DNA of 64,000 bases. It comes from Thunnus maccoyii. Taxonomy: Eukaryota; Chordata; Actinopteri; Scombriformes; Scombridae. This document shows positions 8,621 through 21,494 of the stretch, piece after piece; positions within the stretch are counted from its first letter, which is position 1; each line of letters starts with the position of its first letter. Below the pieces are notes generated by a model. That model saw only the letters and a list, made by a program, of their open reading frames with translations. It did no database searches and was not told where the DNA came from. Both the position numbers and the translations under genes were made by a program. The stretch is taken from positions 25,328,505-25,392,504 of the forward strand of contig NC_056535.1 in NCBI RefSeq assembly GCF_910596095.1, given 5' to 3'.

Positions 8621-10696
8621 CTGAAACATCAGTGAGTTAATAGAAGAGATAAAATTCCTTGGATGGATAAAAAGTTTTAGTGGAGCAAAAGTTGCAGATC
8701 AGAAATCACATAAAAATTCAGTCAAATACAAACGATGTGGTAAATTCATTATCAAATGTAGCAAATATTAAAATTTGAAATAAACAGTGCTCAAATCGCA
8801 AGTTCTTCTGATACCATGTGCATTCTTTAATGCATTCTGCATTTCTCTGTTGCTCATTTGCACGACAGGACGATTTAACTCTGTACTGGACCTCTATGCA
8901 TATGAGAGCTCAGGGTTTCCACCAGAAAAAGGTAGTTGGCTTGGGAACATGTTGCTGTGTGTAAAGCTGTTACCGGTGATACACAGTGTTCGGGCATACA
9001 CTGATTACACTACTTGCCCACCATTGTTTTGCTTTTTTCATAAAAATAAAACCCATTTGGTTCATTTTCATGTACCAGTGCCCACATTCATCAAATAAAA
9101 AAAACTATAATTTGTAAAATACTAAGCGTGTTATCAATGATGCTGCAACTATAAACTGAAAGTGTCTGCTCTGTGACCGTCCGCAGCAGCAGCGTCTGAG
9201 CACAGAGTAGCAGAGACGTCTGTCCTCCCTCCTGCTCTCTGCTGTAAACACACGTAGCTGTTAGCAAGCAGCTGCTCTCATGACTCCCCAGGTCTCGGTG
9301 CTTGTTTTCGGCAGAAACTCTCCTGCTCTCTGCCTACTCTCGGATGGCTGCAATCCACTGTGTGAATTTAGTGATTCAATAGGATTTCCGTCCAATTTTC
9401 CCTCTTGAAGAGGTGTCACAGCCTTACATAACCAGCCTATAATTTCACTTCACTCACTTTGGTTTGGCATGGCTCTTTCGCTATGTCAAATGCACACTTG
9501 GCGGGCTTTCGCTGGTCTTTACTCTCTATTGTCCAGCATGGTTGCTGCTTTGGAAATGTCAAACTCTTCTTCAACTATCCACAAAAATCAGTTTCTGATA
9601 ACATCTAGTTAAAATTGTTTACTGCATCCAGAGGTTTTGTAAGACGGTAAACAGCGTTATCAAAGCACTTCCCCATGCTGACAAATTCCATATTATTGTT
9701 TGGGCTCAATCTATTGTCATTTCACGTTTCCAAGACTTAAATCCTGCAGTGAAAACCAAGCTTGAAAAATGTACACACCACGACTCACTAAATATTCACC
9801 AGTGAGCATATACTTTATTTTATGGTAAAAGAAATGAAGAAATTTCCATGCTAAGAAATGGTGAGTGAAGAAACAGCGCCAGAGAGGCAGGAGCAATCGG
9901 TCAGGAAACATGTCATTAGGAACTCTTGAGAAAGTGCTCCAGCTCTGGACAAGTAGCTCTCACGATTGTGTGGAAAACAAACACTAAAATGTACACACCA
10001 TTGCCTGAGTTACTGGCTAGTCGCTTCTGCATAGAGGCATCGTGCCCGTCCAAACTGTTGAAAAATGCTTTTATGGCAACGGTGAAAGGCGTTTCATGGT
10101 AGGCAAATTAAAGCCACTAATATTCCACACAAAACAAAATCCAAAAGTTGGGCTGCAGCTGCTGTGAGAAGCGGAGCTAAAGGGACAGATACCCACATAG
10201 ACAGACACAGCATCAACTGAGCAGTATGATAAGCTGTTTTGAAACGGTGCCTCCACAACTACTGTGAAGTAAATTACTTTAAATTTACTCAAGGAATTTG
10301 TAAATTAGCATCAAACATCCAAAAATCGTAAATGCTGCCTTTGTTTAAATCTCCTCTTCCTTCCAAATGGTAAAATTGAAATATCTTGATGAAAATCGCA
10401 TTGGTTGAAATTAAATCATGAGCTTATAGTCCCCTTCAAAATGGCAAAATTCAAAGGCTTCTTTTGTTCCAACAAACCAAAGCTCTTAAGGTCTTGAAAG
10501 GATCATCAGGGTAAACTGATGTTTTTGTAAAGCACAGAAATTTTCAGCAAAAGAGAATGTACAGAGGTTTTAAGTCCTGACAAACAAAAACCACAAACTT
10601 TGAGAAAATTTAAAAAGGTAAAGTTTTTTCGTCACATTACATTTATGATTGAGGGTAACTGACATAATGCTGTTCAGAGAGCAGCCTCACACATAC
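8621..10696 (-). other. ncoa5 intron 2, no embedded gene
   Basis: A 2.1-kb intron between the leader exon 10697-10750 and the start-codon exon. A GC-richer patch at about 9170-9350 is not identified. The open frames are short and unconvincing. Confidence 0.5.
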
Positions 10697-10750
10697 CTTA
10701 ACTTGAACCTGGATGACCTGGACTCTGTGTCCACATAATTTACAAACCGT
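10697..10750 (-). other. ncoa5: ncoa5 exon 2, probable 5' UTR
   Basis: A 54-nt segment with a pyrimidine-rich CAG acceptor on its upstream side and an AAG|GTATGT donor downstream. Joined to the 8620 exon it stays open in the ncoa5 frame (…DTESRSSRFKLR). An in-frame TGA arises from the proposed exon 1 sequence, so it is scored as leader. Confidence 0.5.
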
Positions 10751-10901
10751 CTGAAAAGGGAGAAAAATAAATCAATAACCACTTTGCACAGTTTAAGAAA
10801 TAAAATACATCAAAATCAATTGTTAGACTGACAAGATTCAGTTGTGATAAGTATCTATGGTATTTATCATAAAAAGTAATAAACATTCATATATACACTA
10901 G

Positions 10902-10965
10902 AGTTGCAACGATTAGTTGATTAATCGATTAGTCAATCAACTGAAACAATATCTTCATCACCTGA
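10902..10965. repeat. Fragment of the TAGGGCTGCAA hAT-like MITE
   Basis: The terminal motif, GTTGCAACGATTAGTTGATT, followed by nested ATCGATTAG words matches the ends of the fuller copies at 46661-47000 and 51618-51904. Only one end is kept. Confidence 0.45.
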
Positions 10966-11169
10966 GAAATGCAATCTAGTACCCCACAGCCGTGCAAATA
11001 CTGCCTAGCTATGCGTAGCCTGTAATGTTCAATATTTGATGAGATATTAAGGTGTCAATTTAACTTAGCAGAAAGTTAGACCAGTGGTCTGTTAGCTCGT
11101 TATAGGTAGCTACTTTTGTGTGTCTGACTTGATGCTTTGAAGACTTCATACATGGTGATATCCCTTGTG

Positions 11170-12024
11170 TTAAAGGACGGGTTCACAATTTTTGAAGTCT
11201 GTCTTAAATCAATAGTCAGGTGCACATCTGAACACTGAAAGAGGTTACCTTGCTATAATCATTCCTCATGTTTATATTGGCTATAAAGATACCCTTCAAA
11301 TGCACTTTCAATGTAGAGGCCAATTCATGCTTTCTGAGTAAATGTGATGTAAATTTCGTCACCCACCCGCGAAGATCGCTCTACAGACATCTGCACACAG
11401 CCAAAAATTTGAGACTGCATGGACTGTATGTATATGCTGTAAAACAATGCAAGGGGCTTTTTTGGTGTGGGCGTGCTGTTTAAAGTATTAGTGACACAAT
11501 GAAATACAATCCAGCAAGTCCGGAAAGCACGAATTGGCCTTAAGTAACGGGGGCCAAAATCCACAATGTCTTTTAAAGTTTATCTGAAGCTTATATGAGG
11601 CTTCAGCAGACTGAGTTAGCCATATCAAGTGGATATCTGCCACATTTACAGTCTCTCTAGTGTAAAATTCCATCTTTGTGTTTCCTCAGACAGTATTTCC
11701 CTGTTGAACAGCAGTGGAAGTATAGTAACAAAAAGAGGGACTGAAAACACTGTAACAAAGATATCTACTTGGTTTGACTAAATTGTGCGACTGTAGCTTC
11801 ATTTTAGCTTCACATAGGCTAAACTTTCAAATACATGTTTGCACAGAAGGAAGGCTGTGGATTTTGTCCCCCATCAATAACATTGCCAATTCATCGTGAA
11901 TGGATCTTCTAATGGTCAGTGTGAACAGTAGGAACGATTATGGCAAGAAAAACTTTCAGTGTTCATTTGGGCACCTGATTGTTGTTTTAAGACAGACCTG
12001 TATAACGGTGAACCTGTCCTTTAA
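11170..12024. mobile_element. Long palindromic MITE with TTAA target duplication
   Basis: About 855 bp in ncoa5 intron 1. It starts TTAA-AGGACGGGTTCAC and ends GTGAACCTGTCCT-TTAA, so the termini are inverted repeats flanked by TTAA on both sides. The two halves are broadly inverted copies of each other: CAGGTGCACATCTGAACACT on the left matches the complement of the AGTGTTCATTTGGGCACCTG region on the right. TTAA duplication is known for piggyBac and Kolobok families. No transposase ORF is present, so it is non-autonomous. Related copies are at 12721-12890 and 16787-17335. Confidence 0.8.
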
Positions 12025-12516
12025 GAATGGGCCGCTCTTTCATTAGTAAACTTTACCGTTAACGTTATCCTGGCTAATTAACTGTCGCGTAGTCGTTAGA
12101 GTCAGATGTGGTCAAACTTCAATCACAGACATCGTTAAGGAAACAACACAAATCAGATGCTGGCGTCAGTTAACCTGCGTGTTAGCGGCAGTTATTTAAA
12201 TATGGAGTCCACGATGCAAATGGGTTGGCACACACTCAAACACCGGGTCATGTGAACGGAAAAAAATAAATTTTGATGTTCCGCTTTTAAAAACTGACTA
12301 AATATTGACATTTCTGAACTTAAAATATCTATTCCCGAGTGTGCGGTCCATTTATGGGGTTATGATTTACACGTAGCTATGTTAGATATTAGCTACTTCA
12401 TGTTAGCTTAGCTACCTGTTATCTTACAACCAAACGAACTAGCTTAGCAGTGAAGTAGCCAACTGCATAACGGTAATGTTGTTATGCTAAAGACAGCAGG
12501 GCGATTTTTCACTCAC

Positions 12517-12650
12517 CTTCAACGTGCATTTAATCTGTTTTCAGTCGCTTCAGGCTGCGGACAGAACTCGACTGATCACTATCTTCTCACAAAGCTTCTT
12601 TCCTCTTATTTGCTTACGGCATGGACGTATAAAGGTTTACGGCAGCTTCT
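12517..12650 (-). promoter_or_regulatory. ncoa5: ncoa5 first exon and promoter region (approximate)
   Basis: On the minus strand a strong donor GAAG|GTGAGT ends at 12517, suggesting a non-coding first exon that starts somewhere around 12600-12650. It contains a short upstream ORF (ATG CAC GTT GAA) which would end soon after splicing to the 10697-10750 exon. The transcription start is not determinable from sequence alone. Confidence 0.4.
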
Positions 12651-12720
12651 TCTTCTGTGGTCAAAGCCACTACTAAAGATATAAATAGCCACCTACTGGC
12701 GACTCAAGGGGAATTTGGTA

Positions 12721-12890
12721 TTAAAGGACAATTTTTCAAGACTGTCTTAAAACAAGTCACTCAGGTGCCCCAATAAACGTTGAAATAGATTTTTCTTGCC
12801 ATAATAATTCCTCCTTTTCATACTGGCCATTAGAAGATCCCTTCATAATGCATTTACAATGTAAGTGATGGGGGACAAAATCATGCTAGT
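12721..12890. mobile_element. Half copy of the TTAA palindromic MITE
   Basis: Begins TTAA-AGGACAATTTTTCAAG and runs through the same left arm (TACTGGCCATTAGAAGATCC, AAGTGATGGGGGACAAAATC) before similarity stops. It lies just upstream of the presumed ncoa5 first exon. The right arm is missing. Confidence 0.65.
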
Positions 12891-12899
12891 TCCTTTTGC

Positions 12900-13315
12900 C
12901 CCACACTATACCTTTTCCTACATGGAATACCTTAATGAACGGCTCCATACTGTTGTTTTTGCATAGAAGTCAGTAATTATGCAAACCACAGACATCTATA
13001 ATGCAAACATTTACATACACACTCAAACACACACAAGAATGCATACATAAACACAAAATGAGGTTTATTGGACACAATTTTGCTACATTTATTTTAAGGC
13101 AAAGAAATAAATACATTCAACACTGTGCACAATGCATATTTGTCACCGTTTTTTGTCTCATACTGTATATGTTTGTCCTCATGAAGTAGCTGAGGAAATT
13201 GCCTAATCTTGTGTCTCTGATGAAGTATTATCCCCTCTGAGACGCGTTATGCTCCCGGGCAGTTTGTTTTTGCAACTGTGTTGGTGCATAGCATGATCAA
13301 CACTAGTAACTAGCT
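12900..13315. other. Gap between ncoa5 promoter side and THAP gene 3' end
   Basis: Contains the probable 3' UTR of the THAP gene, with minus-strand AATAAA signals at 13088-13093 and 13064-13069, and a short CA-rich patch near 13015-13035. Nothing else recognised. Confidence 0.5.
13064..13069 (-). terminator. Candidate poly(A) signal of the THAP gene
   Basis: AATAAA on the minus strand about 250 nt past the stop codon; 13088-13093 is an alternative. Confidence 0.4.
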
Positions 13316-16300
13316 CTATTGCATCACCATTGCTACACAGGGGCCATTTAAGCCAACAGTGGTTTGTAAACAATCTGCTAATTCAGTGGGTGCTTGTTCC
13401 TCTGATGCAGCATCCTGTTCAAGTCTTTTGTTCTTCACTGAAGTCCTCTTTTTCAGACATCTTAATGATGGCAGTGGTTGGTTCTGTGCCCTCAGCAACA
13501 TGTATCCCTGAACTCCACAAGTGGCCAGCAGCTGTCTTGCCTTCTCCATGGTCTCGATGGACCACTTCACTCCTCTGTCGCTCTTTTGCTCGAGTCTCTC
13601 CATCTGATTAGCGTTGAAGACTTTCTCGATGTTCTGGATAAGATTTTGTTTCTCTCTTTCTAGTTTGTGTTTCTCCCGCCTTTCTTTCACAACAGCTTTA
13701 AGCAGCATCAATATTCTCTCGTCCTTCTTTCGGATGATGTTTTTAAGATGTGCTATTTTACAATCCACAGAGTCAGTGTTTTCCACAGGTGTGGAGTATT
13801 GTGTCTCAGGCTCTACACACTCGCAGTGCTCATCAGCTCCTTTCAGTTGTGGTTCCTCTGAGGTGTCACATTGAGCTGCTGTAAAATCCTGGTCATCCAA
13901 CACACACAGAAACTCACAATGTAAAGGGAGTCCAAAGCATTCAGGTTTCAGTATGTTCTCTACTGGGTCTTCATCCACACTAAAGGGATCTGCAATTGAA
14001 GAAATGTACATTGTAAAATAGCAATACAAATGACATTAGACCTATGTTATCATCATAATTATAACTCTCATGTGTATAACCAAGAACATCAGTTCAATTT
14101 TGAAACACAATATGTATAAAAATCCCCAGAAGCATTAAATTGTACCGCCAACTAAAGAATGAAACATAAACTCTAAGCTGCCAAATAAACTAATTTTTCT
14201 TGAGAAAAAAAAAGCAGATTATTTAATTGGTTCCAAGGAAATCCCCCAATGAATAGTGGTATTTATAGAGAAACTTTTACTTCTTTGAATGGAAAGCTTC
14301 AGTGTCGAGATAAAAGGTAGTAAGAGCAGCTCCGTAAATGTATGGCAGTGTTGCCCAGTGATGTACAATAAGTGACCTGATTTAAAGATGGATGAGCACA
14401 CTAGACTCTAGGGTTCCTGTCTATATCATGAGTGGATTTACTTGTACACAGTGACATATAAGGAATGTGTAAGTTCATTTAGATTTATTATTTATCCTCA
14501 CCTCTTTTACTTTCTCTTTCAATCTTTTGTTTTTGTCTTAATACCTTTTAAAATTATTTTTCTCTTTATTCTCAAACCTGTAATATATGACTATCTCATA
14601 ACATGACTCAAATCACATCAGCAAACTGCCACTAAGACTAAGATGATCTGCTTCAAAGAAACTTTCACTGGATAAACAGTATTTTTTGTTTAGGATAGTA
14701 ACCAAACTTCAGTCTCACCACTGTCCTCTGTGTCTGACGGCTCCTTCTCCACACTCTGGCTGTAGGAGTGTTCAACACTGTGTCTCTCCAGCGCAGGAAA
14801 CTGGACCTGTGTTTTGTTCAAAGTCTTATTTTGTGGGAAGTGGGTGAACTTGGTTGGTACAGCGTTTGGCTTCAACTTCCGCAGGTTGTCCATGCGCCTG
14901 GATTCGTACTGTGACTCCTCAAAGTGGTCCTAAAAACAGAGACACATGTAATGCAGATATGTTTTACCACCAACAATAAGCTTGTTCACAGTAGATTCAC
15001 ATGATAAAGCAGACTGAGCTTTTGTTTATCTGTTTGGCTGCCACTTTTCTGGATCTACAAAGTGTTTGGCTGCATCTCACAATATGCCTATTATAAGACT
15101 GTCAAAATGAAATGAGTAACATGCAAGCTGATGTTAATGGGAACACCAGTTGTAAAGCAGCAGTAACCTGACACCAAACAAACAACACTGTCTAAACTCA
15201 CTCTTCGGTAAACATGTTAAAATATCTCGGGAAATGTTTCTCTTGTATCCCAATGTAAAGCTTTTAAGCTGTGGAAATACAGCCAAACAGTTTCTTACTC
15301 CAGGCAAGCAAGTGGCAAATCATGTTTTTCTTATATACTGCTGGAAAAATCCCTGTGAAATGGTCAAGCATAAATCTGTTGTTTAATTCCCGATTCTCAA
15401 ATACTACAATATGATTAGTTGATTATTCTGCTAACAGAAAAAGAATGAACAATTATTTTATGATATATTATAACTAAGGCTCTGAATGCTAAACACTTAA
15501 TGGTCCCACTTGTCTCTGTTTTAGGCTATTATAAACTGAATATCTCTAGGTTTAGGACTGTTGTTGGTCAGACAAAAGAAGCAATATGAGCATCACCTTT
15601 TATAGACGAAAAATGTATCAATTAAATGAAAAGTAATCAACTGACTAAATGATAATGCAGTTAGTTTTCATAATTAGTTAGTTGCCAAGGGCACCAAAAT
15701 GTCCAGCAATTAGTGATTGTGCATCAAAATAGCTTGATCCTTTCAGAGACATCGGTGTCAGCTCCAGCATCTTTCCTCATATGCTGTTGCTAAGTAACTA
15801 GTGACCACTGGCTCCGTGGCAACCAGGCTGTCACTAAGGGTTGTAATGCTTGACAGCTCAGCATATAGCTGTCTGCAGATTACACGTTTTGTTTGCTCTG
15901 AAAACTGCAGGAATAATGTATCTACAATACATCCTAGTCAAACTACTGTTTACGGCGATTAATACAAAAGTGTCATGGTGGTATAATCAGCTTAAAACGG
16001 ATGCCACACTTATCCAGCTCCATAAACACCTTTTCTCATGACATTATCAAAACTCCATCACCAATACTGATGTGAATAACTCTTATATTGTCATTCAGCG
16101 GTGTTTGTACTCTTACATGAAGTACTACTGAGGTTTGTGGGACGAGATGATGAAGCATATTTGGAGAAAGCGGATCACCTCGCACAGCCTCGAGCTGTCG
16201 TGCGCTTTCCAGTTGCGCCTCCCAACCATCTTTTCCCAGATCTCTCTTCTGACGGGATCACGGGGGAAACAGTGCAACTTCTTGCCCCTCTCGTTACGAC

Positions 16301-16331
16301 TAGAGCAGCCTGTAGCCGAACAACCTCCCAT
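13316..16331 (-). CDS. THAP zinc-finger protein with P-element transposase-like C-terminal region
   Basis: Predicted 345-aa DNA-binding protein. Exons 5'->3': 16179-16331, 14719-14929, 13316-13989; both introns are GT-AG and in phase. The N terminus is a THAP domain: C4 and C9, W32, C50 and H53 form the C2CH zinc site, and the closing AVPTKF box is at 74-79. The split after LCE matches the common THAP exon junction. The middle is acidic. From about residue 205 comes a charged Lys/Arg/Glu helix, likely a coiled coil (KKDERILMLLKAVVKERREK). Then comes FNANQMERLEQ…VKWSIETMEKA…LLATCGVQGY…QPLPSLRCLKKR. This order (WSxET, CGxxGY, PLPSxRxL) is that of THAP9/P-element transposases before their RNase H-like domain, which is absent here. 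Function is unknown; probably a domesticated nuclear DNA-binding protein. The start has upstream in-frame Met codons but MGGC fits THAP N termini best. Confidence 0.82.
14930..16178 (-). other. THAP gene intron 1
   Basis: A 1.25-kb intron with no coding signal. Two patches (about 15405-15440 and 15610-15690) share ATTAGTTGATTA-type words with the hAT-like MITE but are too decayed to bound. Confidence 0.5.
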
Positions 16332-16532
16332 GATGACACTCAAATCTCCTACTTCCTCTACCTCTGGGGCCACCGTTAATAAAAAGCGACTCTTCTCCGA
16401 ACTGACAACCGACTTCAGCGGTCACACAAGTTACACCTTCTTGCTCATTGACACCCTGACAAGATACAAACATATGAAAACACGTGTTGTCCAAATTGTG
16501 TGGTTATTTTGCTCTATCCGGTCACGCCACAT

Positions 16533-16533
<1 letters not shown>

Positions 16534-16563
<30 letters not shown>
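16534..16563. repeat. Poly(T) tract upstream of the THAP gene
   Basis: Uninterrupted run of T, about 200 nt upstream of the THAP start codon. Confidence 0.95.
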
Positions 16564-16565
<2 letters not shown>

Positions 16566-16592
16566 CTTTTTTGTTTCGCTGATGTTCGCTGT

Positions 16593-16602
16593 CACGTGAC
16601 GT
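16593..16602. promoter_or_regulatory. E-box/CRE composite CACGTGACGT upstream of the THAP gene
   Basis: A CACGTG E-box overlaps a TGACGT half-CRE about 265 nt upstream of the THAP start. Such sites are common in vertebrate core promoters (USF, ATF/CREB). The role here is inferred from position only. Confidence 0.35.
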
Positions 16603-16615
16603 ATAACTTCAACCT

Positions 16616-16735
16616 GATGCTGTGTTCAGGTAATGTCGGAGTTATGAGGATTACTAGTCTGACTTGTAAAAATGGGGCTCACCTATTACCATCCAAGTCG
16701 TAATTATGACTGAGAGACACAATGGGAAACATACC
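16616..16735. repeat. Short MITE-like repeat, copy 1
   Basis: Shares TGTTCA…TCGGAGTTA, GACTTGTAAAAA and CCAAGTCGTAATTATGACTG with the sequence at 43329-43470, on the same strand. Present twice in the window, so interspersed; family not named. Confidence 0.5.
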
Positions 16736-16786
16736 AAACAAAGTTTTTTTCCTGTGAAAATTATGGTATATCGTGCTTAGTAATGC

Positions 16787-17335
16787 TTAAAGAACGGGTT
16801 CACAATTGTTCAAGTATCTTAAGACAATAGTCAGGTTCCCAAATGAACACTGAAATAGATTTTTATTGTTGTAGATAATCATTCTTACCTTTCATACTGG
16901 CCATTAGTAGATCCCTTCATAAAGCACTTACAATGTAAGTGATTGGAGCCAAAATCCACAGCCTTTCTTCTGTGCAAAAATGTATTTAAAGGTTTATCTG
17001 AAGCCAATATGAAGGGAAATAAAATGAGTGACTTTTGTGATAAAAAAAAAAAAAAAAAAAAAGACTGGAAATGTGGCAGATATCCATCTGATATGACTAA
17101 CTCAGACTGCTGAAGCCTCATATAAGCATATACGTTTCAGATAAACTTTTAAATGCATTTTTGCACAAAATAACTGTGTGGAGACACTGTGGATTTTTAC
17201 CCTCATCACTTACATTGGATCTCCTAATAGCCAGCATGAACAGGAGGAATGATTACAACGAGGAAAACGTCTTTCAGTGTAGATGTGGGCATCCGACTGT
17301 TTAAGAATTGAAAAAATTGTGAACCCGTCCTTTAA
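16787..17335. mobile_element. Second TTAA palindromic MITE
   Basis: Runs from TTAA-AGAACGGGTTCACAAT to GTGAACCCGTCCT-TTAA with the same inverted halves as 11170-12024, including TACTGGCCATTAGTAGATCC on the left and its inverted match on the right. An A-rich run (17041-17060) sits near the centre. It lies between the divergent THAP and capza1 genes. Confidence 0.78.
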
Positions 17336-17889
17336 GCATATAGGGTTGCCTGCGTTTTTTTTTGTTTTGTTTTTTTTTACATATGCAAACTTCACCGTTA
17401 TCCTGGCTATTCAACTGCCGTCCAAAGTCCAGTGCAATTAAGCCCAAAATTTAATGGATATGGTGCTACATTATAGTATTGTTTAACCCTGGAGTCATAC
17501 AACCGTCTTCAGTTGTCCTATGATGTGATGTGAACACTCGCCACTCGCAAACTCCCATCACTACCATTCATCCCATAGAACGTGAACGCAGCAGGGTTGC
17601 CAGGTTGTGAAACTGTCTGCGTCACTTTTGTAGATGAAATCAATGCAAGTTACAATCTATTTTATTCAAGCCTTTTTGAGATTAAACTAGCTAACGTTTA
17701 TACGATGTTCAGCCATTCTAATATTTATTAATCTAAGCTAGTAATTTCTATGGTTTCATTAAATATATTTTATGTTGATTCAGGACAACGTGAAAAGTGA
17801 GTTTGTGCAGTAGGGCTGTCGCTGCTGGGAGGAGTCACACATACCTGGCAACATTGACAGTCGCTTTGTTAACACTTCATTGAGCCAAG
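17336..17889. promoter_or_regulatory. capza1: capza1 upstream region and 5' UTR
   Basis: The stretch from the MITE to the capza1 ATG. It must contain the capza1 promoter and 5' UTR. I see no clear TATA box and no other gene. Confidence 0.4.

Positions 17890-21494
<3,605 letters not shown>

Follow-up and report, generated by a model that had tools for sequence, protein, structure and literature searches.

A THAP zinc-finger gene occupies positions 13316-16331, on the minus strand, of a 64,000-nucleotide stretch of Thunnus maccoyii DNA (the window). A preliminary description proposed that it is a host gene which keeps the front of a P-element-like transposase and has no catalytic domain. In this study, we asked whether the protein descends from such a transposase, is an ordinary vertebrate-type THAP protein, or belongs to a mobile element.

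Gene model and protein architecture

The gene has three exons with canonical GT-AG splice sites and a product of 345 aa. Exon 1 (16179..16331) starts with ATG and encodes residues 1-51, the N-terminal portion of the THAP domain with its residues C4, C9, and C50 included. Exon 2 (14719..14929) encodes residues 52-121 and the first base of codon 122, and contains H53, the AVPTKF box, and the start of the linker. Exon 3 (13316..13989) completes codon 122, continues through residue 345, and ends with the stop. Intron 1 is in phase 0 and intron 2 in phase 1, the latter bounded in the chosen model by GTGAGA on the donor side and TTGCAG on the acceptor side. This model is one of the 20 longest open models listed (333-347 aa), and its predicted exon junctions are the likeliest among them. 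The stop-free frame with exon 3 is 239 aa long, about 224 of them exonic, and is longer than any run found in 300 control sequences (Markov-1, 9.1 kb each; longest run 122 on average, 221 at most). The position and the intact, in-phase three-exon structure given in the preliminary description were recovered, with every exon open. Beyond the stop lie a candidate poly(A) signal, AATAAA, at 13088..13093 and a second candidate of the AATAAA type at 13064-13069, both on the minus strand. Upstream of exon 1, two palindromes are centered around CACGTG (16591-16600 and 16476-16491), which we take to be possible E-boxes.

A Pfam search of the 345-aa protein returned THAP as the sole match (PF05485), at residues 4-79, with 62.3 bits against a cut-off of 23.9 and the whole profile covered (1-87 of 87). 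Membership of the THAP family is defined by a C2CH finger, conserved P, W, and F residues, and an AVPTxF box, together with PF05485. The protein carries C4, C9, C50, H53, W32, and AVPTKF, and it was assigned to the family, as the preliminary description had held.

The remainder of the protein was examined by structure prediction and by reading the translation. AF2 without an alignment predicted a long helix at about residues 196-257 (13583..13768, minus strand), and a heptad scan placed the strongest heptads at 194-221. Past the helix lies an HTH-like block at residues 264-305 (13439..13564, minus strand), which was delimited by translated motifs and alignment: WSIET at 264, CGVQGY at 279, and PLPSLRCLKKR from 293 to 303. 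The motifs quoted earlier as WSxET, CGxxGY, and PLPSxRxLKKR were thus all read in the translation, and the ORF stops 42 residues past the last of them. In the AF2 model the long helix reached a block pLDDT of up to 94, and most of the rest was of low confidence (mean 54.0 for the model). When the 83-residue piece 230-312 was modeled by itself, helices were predicted at 231-255, 266-286, and 297-301 (mean pLDDT 59.8).

Comparison with P-element transposase

In a phmmer search against the PDB, the Drosophila P transposase 6p5a was matched with an E of 1.2e-5 for the whole chain. The match consists of two stretches in order, residues 15-80 with 12-78 and residues 219-302 with 113-194. The second stretch (13448..13699, minus strand) spans the zipper end and the HTH and is colinear with its fly counterpart at near-equal spacing, with two one-residue gaps; taken alone, it scored 9.0 bits with an independent E of 8.6. 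When Drosophila residues 113-194 were compared by Smith-Waterman with every window ORF of at least 30 aa (1281 in all), the exon-3 ORF scored 61 and the next best ORF 40. With the phmmer filters off, residues 191-345 came out ahead of the shuffles (rank 1 of 10,001) with 15.7 bits and an E of 0.0074, the best-scoring shuffle having 12.5 bits. The HTH block alone scored against the fly HTH above all 2000 shuffles, with a z of 5.25. In a Foldseek search of 350,542 chains, the P transposase complex 6pe2 was the first of 11 matches, which was not significant (E 0.65, probability 0.21). Scans of viral and prokaryote sequences found no relative.

The preliminary description had predicted a profile match past the THAP domain and named the lack of one as a refutation of its own reading. 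No such match was found with Pfam, so that in a formal sense this refutation applies. PF12017, the P-type HTH model, matched neither the full protein (E up to 1) nor two fragments of it (E up to 10). We also searched the genome for PF12017 (782,140,779 bases in 54 contigs, the window being C3:25328505-25392504). The genome gave 13 matches, nine of them with internal stops, and the window gave none at E 0.001. Eight of these copies (L001-L008) were compared with the fish protein; they are defined by PF12017 and not identified as THAP9. The HTH block is unlike them, with Smith-Waterman z values of -0.6 to 0.29 for seven of the eight and 3.17 for L004. Against a profile of the eight copies plus the fly HTH, the C-terminal half ranked 701 and received no score. 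The HTH motif of the copies ends in LPHP, not PLPS, in six of the eight; L008 reads LPHA, and L005 has LPHP in another frame. Internal stops occur in five of the eight.

The similarity to P transposase outside the finger is weak in every single test. The stretch past the helix resembles the front end of a P-element transposase, without strong proof, and these comparisons support, but do not prove, that residues 219-302 derive from a P-type transposase. The gene as a whole probably descended from a P-type transposase and is built like the truncated repressors of the fly.

The same results were weighed against an ordinary vertebrate-type THAP regulator, made of a finger and a coiled coil like human THAP1 and human THAP11, in which the HTH likeness would reflect chance or a very ancient origin with no separate domestication. 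Among PDB chains, the finger is closest to human THAP2 and THAP1 (2d8r, E 1.7e-9; 2ko0, E 4.7e-9), ahead of P transposase, which favors such an origin; the THAP chains matched there are 81-99 aa long and finger only, and the comparison with human THAPs covers the finger alone. According to passages of PMC6402169, a coiled coil is predicted in every human THAP protein except THAP10, and therefore the helix is not diagnostic of P transposase. The missing PF12017 match points the same way, as does the HTH part alone, which was not specific in the comparison of the 1281 window ORFs. Against this reading, the match spans both zipper end and HTH and keeps the order and nearly the spacing of P transposase. 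We consider an ordinary THAP regulator possible, though doubtful. Of the earlier claim of a THAP gene with a transposase front, the part that stands is the zipper-end and HTH-like stretch in fly P transposase order; the profile match does not stand, and the helix does not distinguish the two origins.

Surroundings and mobility of the gene

The absence of a catalytic domain, which the preliminary description had reported, was upheld on the protein and on the DNA downstream of it. No RNase H or GTP-binding domain was matched by Pfam in the protein, and the three minus frames of 9000-13315, on the downstream side, gave no Pfam match, with no catalytic remnant recognized there. A general search for inverted pairs in 12885-16800 gave six, none of which spans every coding exon. 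In 11000-19000, eight of 17 inverted pairs enclose the gene, and all eight run between copies of the flanking palindromic repeats. On these results, no transposase is made from this gene, and nothing clearly marks it as a mobile copy. The term exapted host gene, as read from the sequence, would rest on the intactness of the gene and the lack of a catalytic remnant.

These results bear on whether the gene is a decaying or non-autonomous P-type transposon copy whose 5' end is still open by chance. In favor of such an origin, the genome contains degraded P-type stretches, 9 of the 13 PF12017 matches having internal stops. According to passages of PMC2820524, the medaka non-autonomous P element Izanagi has a degenerate THAP domain in three putative exons. 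However, all exons of the tuna gene are open with consensus splice sites, the downstream minus frames hold no Pfam match, none of the six inverted pairs in 12885-16800 takes in all the coding exons, and the eight gene-enclosing pairs belong to the adjoining palindromic repeat family. We consider a decaying copy improbable.

The palindromic repeats that flank the gene are related to one another and lie at 11165-12030, 12720-12885, and 16783-17340. Four of their ends read TTAA followed by AGGAC (three ends) or AGAAC (one end) and then a GGGTTCAC-like sequence, resembling miniature elements of the Kolobok/T2 type. Kolobok elements have TTAA targets, RR ends, and THAP-bearing transposases, as described in passages of PMC6004289, but descent of the gene from a Kolobok-type transposase tied to these neighboring elements is very improbable, since THAP is the only Pfam match in the protein and TTAA-bordered elements of this sort may just be frequent genome-wide.

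Pfam was also applied to nine chosen neighboring ORFs, of which seven matched at E up to 0.01 and two had no match. On the minus strand, the matches were an RRM (8.3-8.6 kb), a Ras-family GTPase (45 kb), and PP2C (59.5 kb). On the plus strand, they were F-actin capping protein alpha (20 kb) and, at 26-34 kb, a MOV10 Ig-like domain and, in two ORFs, AAA helicase domains, with one AAA match falling slightly short of its cut-off. In 17880-64000, the order of capping protein alpha, MOV10, Ras-family GTPase, and PP2C looks like human 1p13. The human order is CAPZA1, MOV10, RHOC, and PPM1J; the RRM neighbor resembles NCOA5. We know of no THAP gene at the corresponding human place.

Proposed function and relation to known proteins

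We consider it fairly probable that the gene is stationary and encodes a nuclear, dimeric THAP DNA-binding regulator with a P-type HTH-like block. We infer dimerization, DNA binding, and a host function from the parts of the protein. THAP fingers bind DNA, and the finger would read a DNA site. The long helix would pair two copies and thereby place two fingers on one DNA molecule. Coiled coils pair THAP1 and THAP11, as described in passages of PMC6402169. Human THAP1, THAP2, and THAP11 share with the fish protein the finger and a predicted coiled coil. The HTH-like block, if inherited from a P-type transposase, would be either a second DNA contact or a structural remnant. According to passages of PMC7776569, the HTH of P transposase touches the terminal repeats in their inner half. 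Since it has neither RNase H nor GTP-binding domains, the fish protein cannot cut DNA and would be limited to occupying sites, either as a regulator of transcription or as a repressor like the Drosophila KP and 66-kDa P proteins.

Passages of PMC7776569 describe two truncated Drosophila P products that repress transposition, KP (207 aa) and the 66-kDa protein; KP dimerizes and binds P DNA. Like the fish protein, they keep the THAP finger, a likeness of architecture only. They differ in being encoded by mobile P elements, whereas no such element has been seen so far around the fish gene. A further difference is that in the fish protein about 115 residues of linker separate the finger from the helix. 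We consider a role as transcription regulator likelier than one as transposon repressor. It is improbable that the gene is a vertebrate counterpart of KP, that is, a host-owned truncated P-type protein that pairs via its zipper, sits on resident P-type ends, and silences them.

A like order of parts is seen in P transposase and in THAP9. In the Drosophila enzyme (DmTNP; 6p5a and 6pe2), the THAP domain, zipper end (KIF...Q...L versus KVF...Q...L), and HTH block (G...Y..L.....PLPS) follow one another as in the fish protein, but DmTNP has RNase H and GTP-binding domains, and by Pfam the fish protein has neither. According to PMC10983969, THAP9 and zebrafish zfTHAP9 have a THAP domain, a long linker, and then dimerization and HTH regions, and in zfTHAP9 the finger is separated from the dimerization region by about 100 extra residues. 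The finger, linker, predicted helix, and HTH-like block of the tuna protein follow a similar order, with a gap of about 115 residues. The catalytic RNase H domain of the THAP9 type was not found in the fish protein by Pfam.

Most likely, the protein is a regulator of a kind already known, to which the gene adds another member. Recruitment of the THAP domain from domesticated P elements is reportedly the subject of Quesneville 2005. Passages of PMC2820524 state that chordates, in the course of their evolution, gained THAP domains from domesticated P elements time and again. If P-type descent is true, this gene would be one more front of a P transposase recruited as a host DNA-binding protein, and a place to ask whether fish stubs continue to target the P-type elements resident in the genome. 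Relatives nearer to the fly version might then also escape the Pfam P-element HTH model, and truncated P descendants may be undercounted.
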